A stretch of 64,000 nucleotides of DNA from Paenibacillus sp. E222 (GTDB lineage: Bacteria; Bacillota; Bacilli; Paenibacillales; Paenibacillaceae), in contig NZ_CP058552.1 of the NCBI RefSeq assembly GCF_013401555.1, positions 4,650,001 to 4,714,000 on the forward strand, in the 5' to 3' direction. Both the position numbers and the translations under genes were made by a program. Position 1 is the stretch's first letter; every line of letters starts with the position of its first letter. Positions 6,427 to 64,000 of the stretch are shown piece after piece. The notes below the pieces were generated by a model that made no database searches, was not told the origin of the DNA, and saw only the letters and a program-made list of their open reading frames with translations.

Positions 6427-7380
6427 ATGAATGTAACAGATCCCGCAATGAACAAAACAGGCAAGCTGCCTTACGTTCTTGCGATATCATTTATTCTATT
6501 GATGGTTAGTTTATCCGTATGGTTACAACATGCAGAGATTATTTTACCAGAGGTTGCAGCAATGGCTATAGCCATGTGGGTATACAGAGAACCAGGGTGG
6601 ATCAGACGTCCTTCCGTCATTTTCATTGCACCGACCGTAACTGCTGCGATCGGTCTGGGCATGAATCAGTTCCAAACCAATTATCCGATAAAGGTAATGC
6701 TTACTCTATCTATAATGATGTTATTTCTGAGATTAATACACTCGAATCTTGCACCCGCCATTGCTACAGGTCTATTACCACTTGCTATTCATACAGAAGA
6801 TTGGTCATTTGTATCAATTGTCTTTGTGTTCACACTGACCTTAATGGCCGGAGTTGTCGTGTTTCAGCTCCATAAAAATCTCGCAGCAAAGTCGAAGGTC
6901 CAATACAAATACATGGTAATCTTCTTAGCCATTTCACTATGCTGGCTCTGTATTTGCTGGTTACTGGGTTATGAACAGATGGCAGTGATTCCACCTATTT
7001 TTGTTGTGGTTTACGAATCGCTCCAAAAGCCGATCTACACAGCAAAAATGGCGTTTAAGCAAGGATTTACCCTAACCCTATCTGCATCCGTTGGCGTTCT
7101 CATTGTTATACAGGTGGATTCGCCGGTTCTGGCTGCGTTCATTGATATGTTTTTAGTCGTCGTGATAACACGCCTTTTTCATGTCCGAATTCCTGCCTTA
7201 TACGCTATACCGCTACTAACCTTTGTATTTCCTGAAGATAAAGTTTGGAGTTTACCTCTTGTCACACTTTTTGCAAGTCTGTTTATGTTTAGCTTTGTAT
7301 TGTTATACAAGTATGGGGAAAAGAGGACTTTGAACCGTAAAAATAAGGGTAGCAGCCGGAGTTCTGTGTCGCCATCATAA
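6427..7380 (+). CDS. Multi-pass membrane protein of unknown function
   Basis: 317 residues with about nine or ten hydrophobic segments and a basic C-terminal tail (KYGEKRTLNRKNKG). I do not recognise the family. The layout (paired short helices, AIAMWVYREPGWIRRPSVIFIAPTVTAAIGLG near the N-terminus, then VIPPIFVVVYESL) is reminiscent of FUSC- or HPP-like integral membrane proteins, but no diagnostic motif was found. An upstream in-frame TTG (6376) exists, but ATG 6427 is preceded by GGAAGGGGAG and is preferred. It is followed 53 bp later by an EamA transporter on the same strand. Confidence 0.75.
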   Translation: MNVTDPAMNKTGKLPYVLAISFILLMVSLSVWLQHAEIILPEVAAMAIAMWVYREPGWIRRPSVIFIAPTVTAAIGLGMNQFQTNYPIKVMLTLSIMMLFLRLIHSNLAPAIATGLLPLAIHTEDWSFVSIVFVFTLTLMAGVVVFQLHKNLAAKSKVQYKYMVIFLAISLCWLCICWLLGYEQMAVIPPIFVVVYESLQKPIYTAKMAFKQGFTLTLSASVGVLIVIQVDSPVLAAFIDMFLVVVITRLFHVRIPALYAIPLLTFVFPEDKVWSLPLVTLFASLFMFSFVLLYKYGEKRTLNRKNKGSSRSSVSPS

Positions 7381-56682: not shown

Positions 56683-56716
56683 AAAGCAGCGGATCAAAGT
56701 GATCGGCTGCTTTTAT
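56683..56716. terminator. Bidirectional terminator between convergent genes
   Basis: AAAGCAGC (56683-56690) with GCTGCTTT (56706-56713), extended by GATC/GATC over one mismatch, and a T run. The arr stop codon overlaps its right arm. Confidence 0.8.
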
Positions 56717-57063
56717 TCAGCTATTATTTTAAGTGGCGATTTAGATCTATATGAACGTGTTGGGTTTCCAGGAAACTTTTTATCAGTTAAGTTTGGATCA
56801 CTTTCAAAATCTCCTAATGGTTCTACAATGTAGATTCTTTCTTTTGCATTGAATCTTGCCAATTCAGCACCCCATTTGGCAGCATTTAATGTTGCAGTAA
56901 AGTATATATAGTTAGAATTTTTTTCTTGGTAATTTGATAAGAATTGGTGTTCTAATAAATCACCAATTTGCAGTTCTGCTTTTGTACCATGAAAAAAAGG
57001 ACCTTGATCTATGATCACTTTTTTGTCATCCATACTGATGTGGAAGATGGGCATCCGAACCAT
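56713..57063 (-). CDS. arr: NAD-dependent rifampin ADP-ribosyltransferase
   Basis: 116 residues. It has the whole Arr signature: GPFFHGTKAELQIGDLL, NYIYFTATLNAAKWGAELA, ERIYIVEPLGDFESDPN and DKKFPGNPTRSYRS. These proteins ADP-ribosylate rifamycins. It is slightly shorter than other Arr proteins (about 140); the N-terminal part before IIDQGPFFHG is short and there is no clear ribosome binding site for ATG 57063, perhaps because the segment in front was disrupted by the adjacent UvrX remnant. Activity should be checked. Confidence 0.9.
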   Translation of the reverse strand: MVRMPIFHISMDDKKVIIDQGPFFHGTKAELQIGDLLEHQFLSNYQEKNSNYIYFTATLNAAKWGAELARFNAKERIYIVEPLGDFESDPNLTDKKFPGNPTRSYRSKSPLKIIAE

Positions 57064-57106: not shown

Positions 57107-57678
57107 GGGGTGGTTAATGGAGAGGTCATCTGGAGAGTCGCAAATGGGCTCGACAATTCGCCGGTAACCGTCAACTCGCACAGTACTCAAAAGGATATCG
57201 GAAACGGAATGACCCTGCCTAGGGATTTCACAGAGGCTTGGGAGATCGAAGTGGTTATCCTCGATATCTGCACAGAAGTATGCAGAAGAGCCCGCAAAAA
57301 GGGGCTGATGGGTAGTATCGTATCCGTGAATGTGTCTGGAGCGGATTTTGACCACCCAACGGGTTTTAACAGGCAGGTTAAACTGTCTGATCCTACAAAC
57401 ATAACTGTTGATGTGTGCAAGATAGCCAAACGCATATTTCATCAACACTGGGACGGGCAACCTGTACGCCGTGTAGGCGTATCCCTTTCTCAATTATCCA
57501 ACGCGGATACATTTCAACTATCGTTTTTGATGATCAGGAGCAAAAACGAGCCATTGATCAGGTGATGGACGACATTAAGGATCGATTTGGCGATATTGCC
57601 ATTCTACGAGCGAGCTCCATTACGGCTGCCGGTCAAGCGATAGATAGAGCATCTAAAATTAGGGGGCATTACAAATGA
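57107..57678 (+). pseudogene. UvrX-like Y-family DNA polymerase, 3' remnant with frameshift
   Basis: The frame EVIWRVANGLDNSPVTV, RDFTEAWEIEVVILDIC, GVSLSQL is the C-terminal (thumb/little-finger) part of the UvrX/DinB polymerase group. It leaves frame in a T run near 57525-57533, and FDDQEQKRAIDQVMDD, AILRASSITAAGQAIDRA, KIRGHYK follows in the next frame to 57678. The palm domain is absent. The stop overlaps the YolD start. Confidence 0.85.
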
Positions 57679-59499: not shown

Positions 59500-60666
59500 A
59501 TGGATAGTGCTGTACTTACGTATGATCCCTTACATCCGGACACTTTAGAGAATCCTTATCCAATCTACAAAAAATTAAGGGAAACCACGCCAATATTTTG
59601 GCATGAGAGAATGAAATCTTGGGTCTTGACTCGGCATGATGACTGCATGAAGGTTTTACAAGATTCTGATTTGTTTGCATTAGATATGAGAAGAGTTGGA
59701 GTGGAAATTTCAGATGTTCGAAAAAATTTACAGTCATTAGACCCTCCGGAAAATGGACCTTTAAGAGCTCTAATGATGAAGGCTTTCAAGTCGCAAGATA
59801 TTGAGAATATTAGGGCGAAAATACGTACTTCTATAAATAGTACCTTTCAAAAGCAGGAAACGTATAAGGAATTTGATTGGATGAAAGAGGTGTCTGCTCC
59901 TCTTGCTTTAAGCTTGACTTCTATATTACTAGGAGTGGAAGAACCAGAATTGGAACTATACATGGAGATTTCTGATGCTATTGCATACCAAATGGATTCA
60001 GGATTGTCCCCTGAAAATTTTGAGCCTGGAGAACAAGCAAGAAAAAAATTAAACGAGCTAGTTGATTTATGGTTTGAGTCAAACGCTACGACCGGTATAC
60101 TGCCGTATATTAGAGCGAACAGCGAAAAAGCCAATGTGCCAAGTTACTATATTAGAAATACAACCGGTACTATGTTTAATGCTAGCTTCGGTACTTTATA
60201 TGCTACGTTTGGTAATGTGGTACTCGCTTTAATAAACAATCCTGAAATTCTTCAAAGTTTCAAAGACGAATCATTATTTTCATCTGGAATTGATGAGTTA
60301 GTAAGGTTTGATGGCCCAGCACAGGGGACGAGTCGATTTGCTACAAGAGACACTGTAATTAGGGGCACAGCAATAAAAAAGGGAGATATTGTACTAACTT
60401 TATTGGCTGCAGCGAATCGAGACCCCCTTGCATTTCCAGAACCAGATAAGATTATTTTAAATAGAACAAATAATAAGCACTTAGGGTTTGGTTGGGGCCC
60501 TCATACTTGCGTAGGCACTTTATTTGGGAAGTTGGCAATAGGCGAATTAATCCATTCTCTGCTTTCTGAATCAAGATGTCTTGAGTTAGTTCGTACTCCT
60601 ACAAGAAGGAATACAGCAACGGTTAGGTGCATCGACGAACTCCCAGTGTTATTTAGTAACATTTAA
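59500..60666 (+). CDS. Cytochrome P450, predicted peptide cross-linking enzyme
   Basis: 388 residues, full length for a bacterial P450. Heme-binding loop HLGFGWGPHTCVGTLFG with Cys337; ExxR as Glu266-Arg269 (DELVRF); FPEPDKIILNR corresponds to the PERF region. The I-helix reads NASFGTLYATFG, where the conserved acidic residue before Thr (as in AGHETT) is Gly231 while Thr232 is kept. Start ATG 59500 with AGAGAGG in front. Its gene is directly followed by three MIYTH genes; by analogy with biarylitide P450s it should form a Tyr-His cross-link in that pentapeptide. It was probably acquired, as the region is AT-rich. Confidence 0.9.
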   Translation: MDSAVLTYDPLHPDTLENPYPIYKKLRETTPIFWHERMKSWVLTRHDDCMKVLQDSDLFALDMRRVGVEISDVRKNLQSLDPPENGPLRALMMKAFKSQDIENIRAKIRTSINSTFQKQETYKEFDWMKEVSAPLALSLTSILLGVEEPELELYMEISDAIAYQMDSGLSPENFEPGEQARKKLNELVDLWFESNATTGILPYIRANSEKANVPSYYIRNTTGTMFNASFGTLYATFGNVVLALINNPEILQSFKDESLFSSGIDELVRFDGPAQGTSRFATRDTVIRGTAIKKGDIVLTLLAAANRDPLAFPEPDKIILNRTNNKHLGFGWGPHTCVGTLFGKLAIGELIHSLLSESRCLELVRTPTRRNTATVRCIDELPVLFSNI

Positions 60667-60711
60667 TTATTTTGATTCATACAATCTTTCTACTTGAAGG
60701 AGGTGATATCT

Positions 60712-60729
60712 ATGATCTATACACATTAA
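60712..60729 (+). CDS. Pentapeptide precursor gene 1 (MIYTH)
   Basis: Codons ATG ATC TAT ACA CAT then TAA. A near-perfect Shine-Dalgarno AAGGAGGTGAT (60697-60707), 8 nt from the start codon, leaves little doubt that it is translated. It starts 45 bp after the P450 stop. The Tyr-Thr-His end fits the Y-x-H cross-link pattern of biarylitide precursors such as MRYYH, but here position 2 is Ile, not Arg. Only five codons, hence missed by any standard gene finder. A -10-like TACAAT at 60680-60685 could add a second promoter. Confidence 0.85.
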   Translation: MIYTH

Positions 60730-60766
60730 GAGTGTTTGAGTATTACTTCAAACGGAGGTGAATACT

Positions 60767-60784
60767 ATGATCTACACGCACTAA
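60767..60784 (+). CDS. Pentapeptide precursor gene 2 (MIYTH)
   Basis: Codons ATG ATC TAC ACG CAC then TAA, with GGAGGTG (60754-60760) at the same 8-nt spacing. Compared with copy 1 it differs in the third bases of three codons, all synonymous. Confidence 0.85.
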   Translation: MIYTH

Positions 60785-60822
60785 TAATTCTCAATAGTAA
60801 TACTTCTATGGAGGTGATTACT

Positions 60823-60840
60823 ATGATTTACACGCATTAA
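60823..60840 (+). CDS. Pentapeptide precursor gene 3 (MIYTH)
   Basis: Codons ATG ATT TAC ACG CAT then TAA, with GGAGGTGAT (60810-60818) at the same spacing. Differences from copies 1 and 2 are again synonymous only. Sequences between the copies are unlike each other apart from the ribosome binding sites, so the coding sense is what has been kept. Confidence 0.85.
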   Translation: MIYTH

Positions 60841-60861
60841 TTTAACATAACAAAAATGAGC

Positions 60862-60912
60862 CAGAGTCAGACAGTACATAATTATGTTAGTCTGGCTCTG
60901 AATATTTTGTTT
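60862..60912 (+). terminator. Hairpin between precursor genes and tailoring genes
   Basis: Stem CAGAGTCAGAC (60862-60872) with GTCTGGCTCTG (60890-60900), one G-U pair, then AATATTTTGTTTT. It may act as a partial terminator so that precursor mRNA exceeds that of the downstream enzymes, or as an RNA stabiliser. Confidence 0.8.
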
Positions 60913-60940
60913 TAAAAATATAAACAGGAGTGATTAATAG

Positions 60941-62083
60941 ATGAAATTAAATAGCTTTGATGACTGGTCTCCTTTAAAGGAGATAATTGTTGGAACAGCC
61001 CAAAACTACATATCGCATGAAAGAGATCTATCGTTTGATATATTCTTTCATGAAAACCTTTTTAAATCGGACTGGGCATATCCCCGTTTAAATAAGTCGT
61101 CCAAAGAGGTGAATGATCTCAACTGGCAAATCAAACAAAAGTATGTTGAGGAACTCAATGAAGACGTGGAAGATCTTGTGAATTTACTAAAAAAATTCGA
61201 TGTAACTGTTCATCGACCTATGATTTTACCGTTTAATCCACAAAATATCAAAGGACTTGGGTGGGAAAGTGCACCAGTACCAGCTCTAAACGTTCGTGAT
61301 AACACTTTAATTTTGGGAGATGAAATCATTGAAACTCCTCCAGCTATTAGATCTAGGTATTTAGAAACTAGATTGTTAGCTCCAATATTTATGAAGTACT
61401 TTGAAGCCGGCGCGACTTGGACCACCATGCCTAGACCAATTTTAACAGACATGTCTTTTGATCTTTCCTATGCACGTGATTTAGAGACTACATTAGGTGG
61501 GCCTACTGAACCTATTGAAGATCCCGAAAGTTCTCCTTATGATGTGGGATTTGAGATGATGCTCGATGGTGCGCAGTGTTTAAGATTAGGTAAAGATATT
61601 ATCGTTAATATTGCAAACCAAAATCATAAATTAGCCTGTGACTGGCTTGAAAGACATGTCGAGAACCGTTATAGAATTCACAGAGTTTATCGGATGAGTG
61701 ATAACCATATTGATAGTATGTTGTTAGCACTTAGACCAGGAGTTTTTCTAGCTAGACATAAAGATCTAAAAGATTTACTTCCTGAACCGTTTAAAAAATG
61801 GAAAATGATAGTACCTCCAGAACCAAGCGCAACCAACTTTCCTACTTATGATGATGGCGATTTATTATTAACAAGTCCCTATATAGATTTGAATGTTCTA
61901 TCAGTTAATCCAGAAACTGTACTAGTGAATGAGGTATGTGTTGATTTAATAAAGACACTTGAAAAAGAAGGATTTACAGTTGTCCCGGTAAAACATCGTC
62001 ACCGTAGACTTTTTGGAGGAGGGTTCCACTGTTTTACTCTTGATACAGTAAGGGACGGTGGGCTGGAGGACTACACAATATGA
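60941..62083 (+). CDS. Arginine:glycine amidinotransferase-like enzyme
   Basis: 380 residues. The amidinotransferase catalytic set is visible: Cys364 in FGGGFHCFTLDTVRDGG, Asp209 in MLDGAQCLRLGKDI and His256 in DNHIDSMLLALRPGVFL, matching human AGAT Cys407/Asp254/His303. The start MKLNSFDDWSPLKEIIVG resembles StrB1/AGAT enzymes. It should transfer the amidino group from arginine to an amine: glycine (giving guanidinoacetate) or possibly the peptide amine. ATG 60941 follows AGGAGTGAT. The next gene overlaps its stop by 4 bp (ATGA), so the two are translationally coupled. Confidence 0.9.
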   Translation: MKLNSFDDWSPLKEIIVGTAQNYISHERDLSFDIFFHENLFKSDWAYPRLNKSSKEVNDLNWQIKQKYVEELNEDVEDLVNLLKKFDVTVHRPMILPFNPQNIKGLGWESAPVPALNVRDNTLILGDEIIETPPAIRSRYLETRLLAPIFMKYFEAGATWTTMPRPILTDMSFDLSYARDLETTLGGPTEPIEDPESSPYDVGFEMMLDGAQCLRLGKDIIVNIANQNHKLACDWLERHVENRYRIHRVYRMSDNHIDSMLLALRPGVFLARHKDLKDLLPEPFKKWKMIVPPEPSATNFPTYDDGDLLLTSPYIDLNVLSVNPETVLVNEVCVDLIKTLEKEGFTVVPVKHRHRRLFGGGFHCFTLDTVRDGGLEDYTI

Positions 62084-63411
62084 AAATAATAATCGGAAAT
62101 CATATTGAACATTCAATACTAAAATTGAGCAACGATGATCGCATCTTTTCGCAACGAGTTATTTGGTTTGCTGAAGATGGAGATTTAATCATTCTACCAT
62201 CTAAACCAGACATGCAATTCCTACAGCATGTTACATCTCTAACTGGGGTGGATGCAAACAGCCTTAAGTTTTTCGTTACGTCTAATAACAAATCCAATGA
62301 AAAACATTTTGATCCCCAGGCTTTATATGAGGAACAATTTATAAACAGCATTCGAAAAGAAATAAATAATGTAACTCAGGTATTACCAATGTGGCCATCA
62401 CCTGCTATTGCACACTTTGTAGAGAAACTTAGCTTATCAGATAAATTACAAGGCGCATCCTTTTTCTTACAAAATGGAGTTGAACTGGTTAATAACAAAG
62501 CTTATTTTAGGGTATTTGCTACGGCAGCAGGCGCACCTATTGCAGATGGAAGGGTTTGCCACTCAATTGAAGAAGCTGAACTAGCAATACGAAATCTATT
62601 GTCAATTAATGATGCGGTAATGATTAAACAGGCACACAATGGAGCAGGAGCGGGGAATGAGTTGCTTATAAGAGATAAAAGTCTGGGAGTAGGTCATGTA
62701 GGGGCAGTTCATATGCATGTACTGAGTACAGCTAATGACCCTATTAAAAGTTATTTAGACTCGCGTTGGAACTGGGCTTCTGCAAATGGAAAGAGGCCTG
62801 TTATTATAGAAGAGTTCATTCCAGATGCAAAAACAATATATGCTGAATTTTTTGCTAACGATGAAGGTGTTTATTTTACGGGTTCAGGACGTTTAGGATA
62901 TACTAATCAAAGGCTTGTTACAGAAATAGCTCCTTTAAGAGGTATCTCAAAGGAAGTAGAAACAAAATTAACAACTTATGGTGAATCACTTGCCAAGTTC
63001 TATCAATCCATTGGATATCGTGGTTATTTGTCTGCTGATGCAGTTATAGAAAAAGATGATAACATAGTATTCACTGAGGTAAACTCTCGCGTAGGCGGTT
63101 CTCTGCATGTTTATGATTCAATAGCTAATAAAGTAGTTAAAGCTAAAGAAGAGCCAGAAAGAACTGTAGTTCAATATCACTCCCCACTCAATTGGACACC
63201 TGTTGCTTTTGAAACTTTTCACCAATTTTTAGAAGACAATAATCTACTTTATGACTCTTCAAAACGTAAAGGAATTTTAATATCCTTACCGATTCTACTT
63301 GAGGTAGGTGGATACGTGAGTTTTTGTATTGTTTATGAAAATGAACAAGAAGAGAAGCAATATTACAGTTTATTGGATAATCATTTTAGCACAAAAAAAC
63401 TCTATCTTTGA
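62080..63411 (+). CDS. PGM1-like ATP-grasp peptide ligase
   Basis: 443 residues. N-terminal pre-ATP-grasp domain (about 1-110), ATP-grasp core with Lys183 and glycine loop HNGAGAGNELLI, VIIEEFIPDA, and the Mg/ATP motif TEVNSRVGGSLH (Glu333, Asn335, Arg337), then a C-terminal part LYDSSKRKGILISLPILLE as in PGM1_C. This is the architecture of PGM1, the ligase that joins a guanidino acid to ribosomal peptides in pheganomycin and resorcinomycin synthesis. By analogy it should acylate the N-terminus of the cross-linked peptide with a guanidino acid. The ribosome binding site GGAGG (62065-62069) lies in the preceding gene. Confidence 0.88.
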   Translation: MKIIIGNHIEHSILKLSNDDRIFSQRVIWFAEDGDLIILPSKPDMQFLQHVTSLTGVDANSLKFFVTSNNKSNEKHFDPQALYEEQFINSIRKEINNVTQVLPMWPSPAIAHFVEKLSLSDKLQGASFFLQNGVELVNNKAYFRVFATAAGAPIADGRVCHSIEEAELAIRNLLSINDAVMIKQAHNGAGAGNELLIRDKSLGVGHVGAVHMHVLSTANDPIKSYLDSRWNWASANGKRPVIIEEFIPDAKTIYAEFFANDEGVYFTGSGRLGYTNQRLVTEIAPLRGISKEVETKLTTYGESLAKFYQSIGYRGYLSADAVIEKDDNIVFTEVNSRVGGSLHVYDSIANKVVKAKEEPERTVVQYHSPLNWTPVAFETFHQFLEDNNLLYDSSKRKGILISLPILLEVGGYVSFCIVYENEQEEKQYYSLLDNHFSTKKLYL

Positions 63412-63516
63412 GATCTAACTAGCAAATGATTGTTATTGGAATACTAATTTAAAATATTGGTCAACTACACATGGTAGCCCTCTTAGGGTTCTTTGTGTTT
63501 TCAGAGGTTCATAAAA

Positions 63517-63580
63517 ACCTAATAAAATTATGGTATGATTGCCTCACCTAGATTTGTGATGCAGTCATACCATAATGACT
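63517..63580 (-). terminator. Hairpin between convergent genes, terminator for the MFS gene
   Basis: Inverted repeat of 16 bp (63527-63542 with 63561-63576, one G-U pair). On the minus strand it is followed by TTTTATTAGGTTTTT, so it should end the MFS gene. Confidence 0.75.
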
Positions 63581-63596
63581 AAAGTGAACTGTCCTA

Positions 63597-64000
63597 TTAC
63601 TGAGTAAGATCCGAAGAACTTGCCTCAACCTTTTCAATTTTAGAATTATCATAAACTTTATAAAGTCTTATATATACGAGAGCACTCAAAGCAGCAAGAA
63701 TTAGTATTGTACTGAATATCCCAATAGGGGATATCCATTCAGACATAAATACAGTTACAGGGGCTAAAAACCTACCAATTGTGAACTGCAATCGTGATGC
63801 TCCCATATATTTCCCTCTTGCATTTTCGGGTGCATAGTCAGCTATAAAATTATCAATGACAGGTGCTCTAACAATCTCACCGAAAGTAAAAACAATTGTA
63901 AGTAAAAATAGAATCCAAATGTTTGTGGTAAAACCTAATAAAAATGTTCCTACACCAGCGAGAACAGCTGAAAGTATAAAAACATTTTTATCACTCCACT
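63597..64000 (-). CDS. MFS transporter, partial (C-terminal part, gene continues beyond the window)
   Basis: The frame is open to the window end. From about 63950 downward it reads SAVLAGVGTFLLGFTTNIW, EIVRAPVIDNFIADYAPENA, RGKYMGASRLQFTIGRFL, then two more helices and a charged tail. The FIADYAPENARGKYMG region is the loop of drug:H+ antiporter-type MFS proteins. Converging with the ligase gene, it is a candidate exporter or self-resistance protein for the peptide product. The beginning lies outside the window. Confidence 0.82.
   Translation of the reverse strand, partial: WSDKNVFILSAVLAGVGTFLLGFTTNIWILFLLTIVFTFGEIVRAPVIDNFIADYAPENARGKYMGASRLQFTIGRFLAPVTVFMSEWISPIGIFSTILILAALSALVYIRLYKVYDNSKIEKVEASSSDLTQ

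Follow-up and report, generated by a model that had tools for sequence, protein, structure and literature searches.

What would be made by a cytochrome P450, three genes of five codons each, an amidinotransferase (AT) and a PGM1-like ATP-grasp peptide ligase that stand in one row in a member of the Bacillota? The question is raised by the end of a 64,000-nt stretch of Paenibacillus sp. E222 (contig NZ_CP058552.1, positions 4,650,001 to 4,714,000), which was analyzed as a whole and is called the window. All the parts named in an initial annotation of this DNA, that is, the P450, three genes for the pentapeptide MIYTH with their ribosome-binding sites, a hairpin, the AT, the overlapping ligase (by 4 nt) and a convergent gene of the major facilitator superfamily (MFS), are present in the sequence (table 1). 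Judged from these sequences, the cluster is a relative of the biarylitide clusters and of a kind known already. Probably, the P450 cross-links MIYTH into a ring; the AT and the ligase are predicted to make a guanidino acid and to couple it to the N-terminus of this ring, and the MFS protein would export the product.

Each MIYTH gene is preceded by GGAGGTGA, which begins 13 nt 5′ of the ATG. In the 7.52-Mb genome, the degenerate pattern for MIYTH and its TAA stop, ATGATHTAYACNCAYTAA, shows three forward and no reverse matches, all of them in the cluster, and its reversed control has no match. The ribosome-binding site together with the gene (up to two mismatches allowed) is matched three times in the window and never across 100 shuffles. 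On both strands, the window contains 229 five-codon start-to-stop strings, and eight of them have a Shine-Dalgarno (SD) match of at least 5; among these eight, Tyr or Trp at residue 3 combined with His, Tyr or Trp at residue 5 is found in the three MIYTH genes exclusively. The copies vary at all four codons after the start, in every case by a synonymous change of the third base (copies 1/2/3: ATC/ATC/ATT, TAT/TAC/TAC, ACA/ACG/ACG and CAT/CAC/CAT), and the repeat between them extends over no more than 32 nt, which comprise the ribosome-binding site and the gene. This is the pattern expected of translated copies under selection, and from it and the ribosome-binding sites we infer that the minigenes are translated.

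The P450 carries the heme-Cys motif FGWGPHTCVG. Its closest solved structures are 8ukz, 8u2m and 8u3n (E ~1e-73; 8ukz and 8u3n are nearly identical to 8u2m in sequence), followed by 22yx, 9m47, 9eby and 8spp. 8U2M is described as P450Blt with its pentapeptide, and 8SPP and 9DUJ as RufO (PMC12186263). In the tree, rooted at its midpoint and with a long branch for P450Blt, the window P450 and P450Blt are grouped against three unrelated P450s (100/100). The initial annotation regarded the locus as a Bacillota relative of the biarylitide clusters, and this grouping with pentapeptide-modifying P450s bears it out. Both marks of such a cluster are found, namely a five-residue MxYxY/H precursor in an 18-bp gene with a ribosome-binding site (MIYTH, three times) and an adjacent homologue of BytO/P450Blt. 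In P450Blt, His234 and Glu238 of the I helix are described as directing the cross-link (PMC10929621); at these positions the window P450 has Asn and Gly, and thus the type of bond is not to be copied from P450Blt. Among the Bacillota, the window P450 is placed in a five-member group (100/100), with the one of Sporolactobacillus as its sister (92/92, below the mark for firm support of the tool).

In order to follow the P450 through other genomes, the best 80 of 183 loci from a scan with the P450 alignment were taken. The clade consists of 39 loci (L035-L073), and a partial match (L074) and the remote P450s (L075-L114) were left out of its counts. Of the 39 loci, 35 have a minigene for a penta- or heptapeptide with aromatic residues 3 and 5: 28 have an SD of at least 4, four (L048, L060, L068 and L072, G-rich upstream) were detected without an SD requirement, and three (L046, L047 and L050) read MRYDHCL. 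MxYxH-like genes beside the homologues, for which a search had been recommended in the initial annotation, are therefore the rule in the clade, and not the homologues bare of such genes that it had named as contrary evidence. With an SD of at least 4, there are 25 YxH minigenes in the 563,924 bases of the clade loci (33 hits counting MQWNY and MRYEY) and none in the 471,314 bases of 39 loci with remote P450s (L076-L114).

The peptides are mainly of one type. Tyr-Asp-His is found in 29 of the 35 (26 MxYDH and three MRYDHCL), and the remaining six are MQWNY (two), MRYLH (two), MDYSH and MRYEY. At residue 2, Ser, Gly, Thr, Phe and Ile occur across the subfamily. The absence of Arg-2, stressed in the initial annotation, is true of MIYTH but ordinary in the subfamily, and Thr-4, which is the unusual residue, had not been singled out. 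An AT (65-77% identical) is located in 24 of the 39 loci and the ligase (29-54%) in 28, including every locus with an AT. P450, AT, ligase and a Y-D-H peptide occur together in 22 of the 39, mostly in Streptomyces. The ligase accompanies 26 of the 29 Y-D-H peptides and none of the six others; all 26 ligase-bearing loci with a readable peptide (of 28) have Asp-4. All three copies in the window have Thr-4. Since every readable peptide next to the ligase elsewhere in the clade is of the Y-D-H type, MIYTH next to a ligase is an exception.

No minigene was found in L038 and L040 (repeated scans) or in L049 and L070. At 8290 of L038 and at the same place of L040, 3′ of the P450, a start reading ATG-AGC-TAC-GAC (MSYD...) is positioned where the pentapeptide is expected; in L038 it opens a 333-aa open reading frame with no Pfam match over the cut-off. 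The pentapeptide of these two loci may have been lost or may be part of a fusion. In the three Streptomyces loci with MRYDHCL (near 6880), the core is followed by two C-terminal residues, and a distant AT (26%) and a ligase (36%) are present.

A homologue of the Asp/Asn beta-hydroxylase accompanies the AT in 20 loci. It was not found in the window's genome (the control genome gave a match of 100%), nor in the locus or genome of Sporolactobacillus L037, the peptide of which is MIYDH. The idea that Asp-4 is the substrate of this hydroxylase and Thr-4 a ready-made hydroxylated residue was considered and not adopted. The link between hydroxylase and residue 4 is weak, because the hydroxylase is also located beside MRYLH (L071 and L072, both without AT) and, in print, beside MRYVH, and is absent with the MIYDH of L037.

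A second survey was anchored on the AT, so that the loci were not selected by their P450. In 392 Streptomyces genomes there were 26 matches in 22 genomes, fetched as 24 regions. In all ten regions with an AT of 67-73% identity, the ligase and an MxYDH gene are present together with a clade-like P450 (39-51%), whereas DpgA, which belongs to the genes for the acceptor dihydroxyphenylglycine (Dpg), is absent from each of them. Of the other 14 regions (best AT 57-65%), ten have DpgA and nine a PGM1-like ligase; a pentapeptide is absent from all 14, and their P450 matches do not exceed 32%. The joint occurrence of AT, ligase, clade P450 and pentapeptide gene is new here. Several of the ten regions are loci of the first survey, and for this reason the two surveys are not independent. 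Plasmids with an AT at 60-80% gave six records, that is, four with a P450 at E 1e-60, one dpg cluster and one from Streptomyces sp. KN37. Two Streptomyces genomes (L166 and L168) have tandem ATs (60% and 52-53%), and in their fetched regions no PGM1-like ligase or DpgA was found.

The AT aligns with GATM, StrB1, SxtG and HsvA. It keeps Asp, His (HIDS) and Cys (GGGFHC) at the positions aligned with the catalytic residues of GATM, and its loop at GATM Met302, next to the catalytic His, lacks one residue by comparison with GATM. Residues 1-405 of the ligase align on 1-403 of PGM1 (3wvq), and its last 38 residues are unaligned. With this ligase, the window has the enzyme of the Pgm1/Asp-4 subgroup of biarylitide clusters; with ligase and AT together, it has the pair of the pheganomycin-type clusters, which produce peptides with an alpha-guanidino acid. 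The third mark of the latter, DpgA, is missing: the genome shows a single match of 32% (4.9e-38), ~1 Mb from the cluster. In the controls, DpgA matched at 69 and 71% in a control genome and at 30% in a genome whose AT is not accompanied by a dpg cluster.

The AT tree (49 rows) separates the two kinds of clusters. The 24 rows from biarylitide-type clusters (among them the window, L038, L040 and the four further contigs described below) are all within one 30-row clade (100/100), and the 12 ATs of Dpg clusters are outside it. The ATs of biarylitide clusters thus form their own clade, a result new here. The same clade also includes proteins of Rhizobium, Myxococcales, Rubritalea, Methylobacterium and Rothia, with gene surroundings not seen, and L175. 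Seventeen positions distinguish the biarylitide-type set from the Dpg-cluster set (with a conservation of at least 92% in 23 rows, which include a stray row of Rhizobium, and of 90% in the 12 Dpg rows); these include residue 255 beside the catalytic His and five positions in 103-115.

The following course is proposed. The three minigenes would supply MIYTH, and the P450, by homology to P450Blt, would join Tyr3 to His5 with the loss of two hydrogens, the bonded atoms not being predictable. A host peptidase encoded outside the cluster may then trim Met or Met-Ile, as in myxarylin, for which the order is reported as cross-link, leader removal and N-terminal capping (PMC12951456). The AT would take the amidino group of arginine and place it on a small amino acid of the central metabolism; because the Dpg-making genes of the pheganomycin-type clusters are absent, a common amino acid is assumed, of which glycine is the simplest guess. 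The ligase would consume ATP and couple this guanidino acid to the N-terminus, in the manner of PGM1, for which the coupling of a small core peptide with a guanidinoacetic-acid derivative is reported (PMC8939145). The product would finally be exported by the MFS protein. An AT and a ligase that are kept without a Dpg supply, and an AT with residues of its own near the active site, are read most simply as serving the ligation of another guanidino acid.

If all loci are viewed together, the pathway might be a portable one of the Bacillota and the Actinomycetota, a hybrid of biarylitide and pheganomycin biosynthesis that leads to N-terminally guanidino-acylated biaryl tripeptides through a dedicated AT clade. 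This wider view is tentative and falls slightly short of an even chance. If it were true, the AT clade would recruit an acceptor from the central metabolism in place of dihydroxyphenylglycine, and the cluster of the window, with three enzymes and Thr for Asp-4, would be its minimal form. The guanidine cap would be the missing last step, which would explain the inactivity of isolated biarylitides in standard assays. For biarylitides no activity has been noted in standard antibacterial, antifungal and cytotoxicity assays, and possible effects on plants are mentioned for related peptides.

The alternative that survives best inverts the last two reactions: the ligase would first extend the cross-linked peptide at its N-terminus by an ordinary amino acid, and only then would the AT amidinate the new N-terminus. 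The AT residues that differ from those of the Dpg clusters near the active site, the shortened loop by the catalytic His, which may leave room for a peptide, and the lack of genes for a special free acceptor would agree with this order. However, the substrate of PGM1, which is the closest ligase with a solved structure, is a guanidino acid made beforehand (PMC8939145), and the AT of S. globosus adjoins the dpg genes which make its likely acceptor; amidination on the peptide is considered unlikely.

It is less likely still that AT, ligase and MFS protein constitute a neighboring module without any action on MIYTH, so that the product is the plain cross-linked tripeptide. There are precedents in the published descriptions of two clusters. 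The AT, ATP-grasp ligase and MFS genes of thiovarsolin are conserved and yet dispensable, their deletion having left the known products unchanged (PMC6511847), and the Saccharothrix sav cluster (MRYVH, AT and hydroxylase) yielded solely the unmodified cross-linked YVH (PMC13417212). On the contrary, each of the ten close ATs in the Streptomyces sample is found with a pentapeptide, a clade-like P450 and a ligase, and the pentapeptide genes of the window and of L037 are inside the gene run, between P450 and AT. This linkage across two phyla makes an unrelated module hard to uphold, though one DNA region is not one pathway.

Little probability is given to a different reaction of the P450 on Tyr, for example nitration as by the related RufO. 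In its favor, RufO has a pentapeptide substrate and belongs to the nearest solved structures, the window P450 departs from P450Blt in its I-helix residues, and a nitric oxide synthase gene exists in the genome; this only match, though, is at 1.73 Mb, ~3 Mb from the cluster, and the nitrating clusters described in PMC13417212 co-encode the synthase, as rufomycin-type clusters do and the window cluster does not.

That the minigenes are due to chance or are purely regulatory leader peptides of translation or attenuation, as their tiny size and the hairpin behind them would allow, is hardly credible in view of three copies with exclusively synonymous differences and no other copy in the genome, of the aromatic-x-aromatic minigenes on one side or the other of 35 of 39 homologous P450s with no YxH gene in the remote-P450 control, and of biarylitides being proven products of such genes (PMC12951456 and PMC13417212). 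Chance was rejected on account of the uniqueness in the genome, the shuffles and the codon pattern, and a leader function alone was rejected as the main reading because the minigene changes its place relative to the P450 between the two clades, being 5′ of it in one and 3′ in the other.

Several observations weigh against the preferred reading, in which cross-linked MIYTH receives a separately made guanidino acid. Besides the thiovarsolin and sav results, MIYTH lacks the Asp-4 of all other ligase-bearing loci with a readable peptide, and L038 and L040 have AT, ligase and P450 without a pentapeptide. L175, a long-branched AT of the clade, is accompanied by neither P450 nor ligase nor pentapeptide, and the AT on the plasmid of KN37 is truncated (73% over its 72%) and has no annotated P450 in its vicinity. 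We assume that the shorter loop at Met302 gives the AT an open site like that of StrB1, and the acceptor may then exceed glycine. The hairpin was not called by a simple terminator scan of the window, and promoter-like sites numbered 17 against 18.0 in shuffles.

As a separate observation, the truncated AT of the KN37 plasmid is located with an ATP-grasp gene and a phosphotransferase gene (L182 8037-11067), perhaps a remnant of an actinobacterial-type cluster.

Among the known systems, the biarylitides (bytA/bytO, P450Blt and myxarylin) share with the window an 18-bp M-x-Y-x-H gene, of a size that escapes annotation, beside a P450 nearest to P450Blt/RufO. The window differs in Thr-4, in the three copies, in the absence of Arg or Lys at residue 2, in the Asn/Gly pair of its P450 and in the additional AT, ligase and MFS genes. 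Of the 277 clusters described in PMC13417212, 47 combine Pgm1 with Asp-4; the same paper notes an AT in the sav cluster and, in Lysinibacillus, as many as six copies of MQWNY. The 47 resemble the window in pentapeptide, P450 and Pgm1-like ligase, and 20 loci of the present clade (L045, L048, L051-L054 and L056-L069) resemble this group; unlike the window, the group has Asp-4, and the 20 loci have the hydroxylase homologue as well. The sav cluster of Saccharothrix variisporea (MRYVH with savT, an AT, and savH) is likewise a biarylitide cluster with an AT; it is likened here by its description in PMC13417212, which names no Pgm1 ligase there and gives a product without AT modification. The MQWNY clusters also have several minigene copies, with Trp-x-Tyr instead of Tyr-x-His.

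The pheganomycin-type cluster of S. globosus comprises an AT (59%, homologous to that of the window), a PGM1-related ligase, acting on a ribosomal peptide as is predicted for the window, and dpgABC. The window has no dpgABC and has a five-residue precursor, a biarylitide-type P450 and an AT of the separate clade. Thiovarsolin has the same three enzyme types (varS, varL and varP) beside the precursor of a ribosomally synthesized and post-translationally modified peptide, of the YcaO/TfuA kind, and its module is the dispensable one mentioned above (PMC6511847).

The initial annotation knew of no described cluster that combines a biarylitide-type precursor with an AT and a PGM1-type ligase. This is correct in part. 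Biarylitide clusters with Pgm1 (the 47) and one with an AT are already published (PMC13417212), and the full set is common (22 of the 39 loci), yet no text was found that has both AT and ligase in a biarylitide cluster. The main text of PMC13417212 mentions amidinotransferase once, in sav, draws no link between AT and the Pgm1/Asp-4 group, and contains 'Paenibacillus' and 'MIY' zero times; among 5.39 million open-access papers, by title and start of abstract, no other paper was found that describes AT, Pgm1-like ligase and biarylitide-type precursor together. The linkage of AT, ligase and pentapeptide and the Thr-4 variant appear to be undescribed in the literature examined. This linkage suggests a joint task for the AT and the Pgm1-like ligase, in which the AT would make the acid and the ligase would attach it. 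As MIYTH demonstrates, the Asp-4 rule has exceptions, and genes of this type extend to the Bacillota, where annotation misses them. The predicted product would be an atypical representative of a bacterial natural-product family that is small and little understood. Since the cluster is the simplest case seen, with three enzymes, one peptide and an exporter, its complete pathway could be reconstructed in a laboratory host.

The closest arrangement is that of Sporolactobacillus L037, with the order P450, MIYDH, AT (77%) and ligase (54%), and an MFS gene (47% identical to the window's) on the other side of the P450. The closest P450s with fetched DNA (64-66%) are those of the Lysinibacillus MQWNY clusters and the B. 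arachidis MNYNH locus; no AT and no PGM1-like ligase was found in the stretches fetched from Lysinibacillus and from the B. arachidis plasmid, and no AT at E 1e-60 in the genomes of L035, L036, L039, L041, L042, L044 and L055. P450, AT and ligase were also found in a Bacillus metagenome-assembled genome (32,790 bp), in B. cereus (18,408 bp) and in two further contigs (6,564 and 6,034 bp) which are grouped with these two in the AT tree; this suggests that the three genes form one cluster in each of the four sources. Upstream of the MNYNH/P450 pair of B. arachidis, across an IS6 transposase, there are two ATP-grasp genes of L-amino-acid-ligase type (L115 2700-5162, minus strand).

At E 1e-60, the P450 has no match in 397 other genomes of the class, among the matches listed, or in 198 other genomes of the order of Sporolactobacillus, and the AT has none in 74 congeners. 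The ligase gave only weak matches in 148 other relatives (23-32% in 24 of them). The GC content of the cluster is 0.366, against 0.434 across the window. The scarcity of the genes in relatives and the low GC disfavor vertical inheritance, and a horizontal gain of the cluster is likely.

The hairpin has a fold z of -4.96 over 80 nt. Among 36 relatives, namely L115 and 35 loci of the clade, many of them close kin and hence non-independent, 30 show a fold with z ≤ -2 in the 70 nt 3′ of the minigene, an observation that is new here; the six without a stable fold are L035, L036, L053, L059, L062 and L063. A hairpin in the bytA-bytO gap of myxarylin is named in a supplement title of PMC8708641. The structure is possibly a partial terminator or an mRNA stabilizer, and, speculatively, it might allow transcription of the minigenes above the level of the enzyme genes. 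The fold could aid the detection of such minigenes.

Table 1. Features of the MIYTH cluster, in window coordinates
Feature	Position	Strand	Remarks
Cytochrome P450, 388 aa	59500..60666	+	predicted Tyr3-His5 cross-linker; PF00067 1.3e-21; PDB 8ukz/8u2m ~1e-73
Shine-Dalgarno, MIYTH copy 1	60699..60706	+	sequence
MIYTH precursor gene copy 1	60712..60729	+	ATG...TAA
Shine-Dalgarno, MIYTH copy 2	60754..60761	+	sequence
MIYTH precursor gene copy 2	60767..60784	+	ATG...TAA
Shine-Dalgarno, MIYTH copy 3	60810..60817	+	sequence
MIYTH precursor gene copy 3	60823..60840	+	ATG...TAA
Hairpin between minigenes and AT gene	60862..60900	+	fold z -3.95
GATM/StrB1-type AT, 380 aa	60941..62083	+	PDB 2jdx 1.8e-44, 1bwd 2.2e-44
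PGM1-like ATP-grasp peptide ligase, 443 aa	62080..63411	+	PF18604 4.8e-20; PDB 3wvq (PGM1) 8.5e-59
MFS transporter, C-terminal part in window	63597..64000	-	PF07690 8.4e-15; predicted exporter

The MFS gene, convergent to the cluster, continues past the end of the window and encodes 425 aa as a whole (L007 5598-6875). 3′ of it (L007 8547-9960), there are pieces of a transposase helix-turn-helix and of an integrase core, IS3-like, which fit a mobile surrounding. Upstream of the cluster, the window contains an Arr-type rifampin ADP-ribosyltransferase gene (PF12120, 3.1e-43; 56713-57063, minus strand) and a fragment of a UmuC/DinB-like polymerase gene (IMS_C, 1.8e-27; 57110-57565, plus strand), which is apparently broken.

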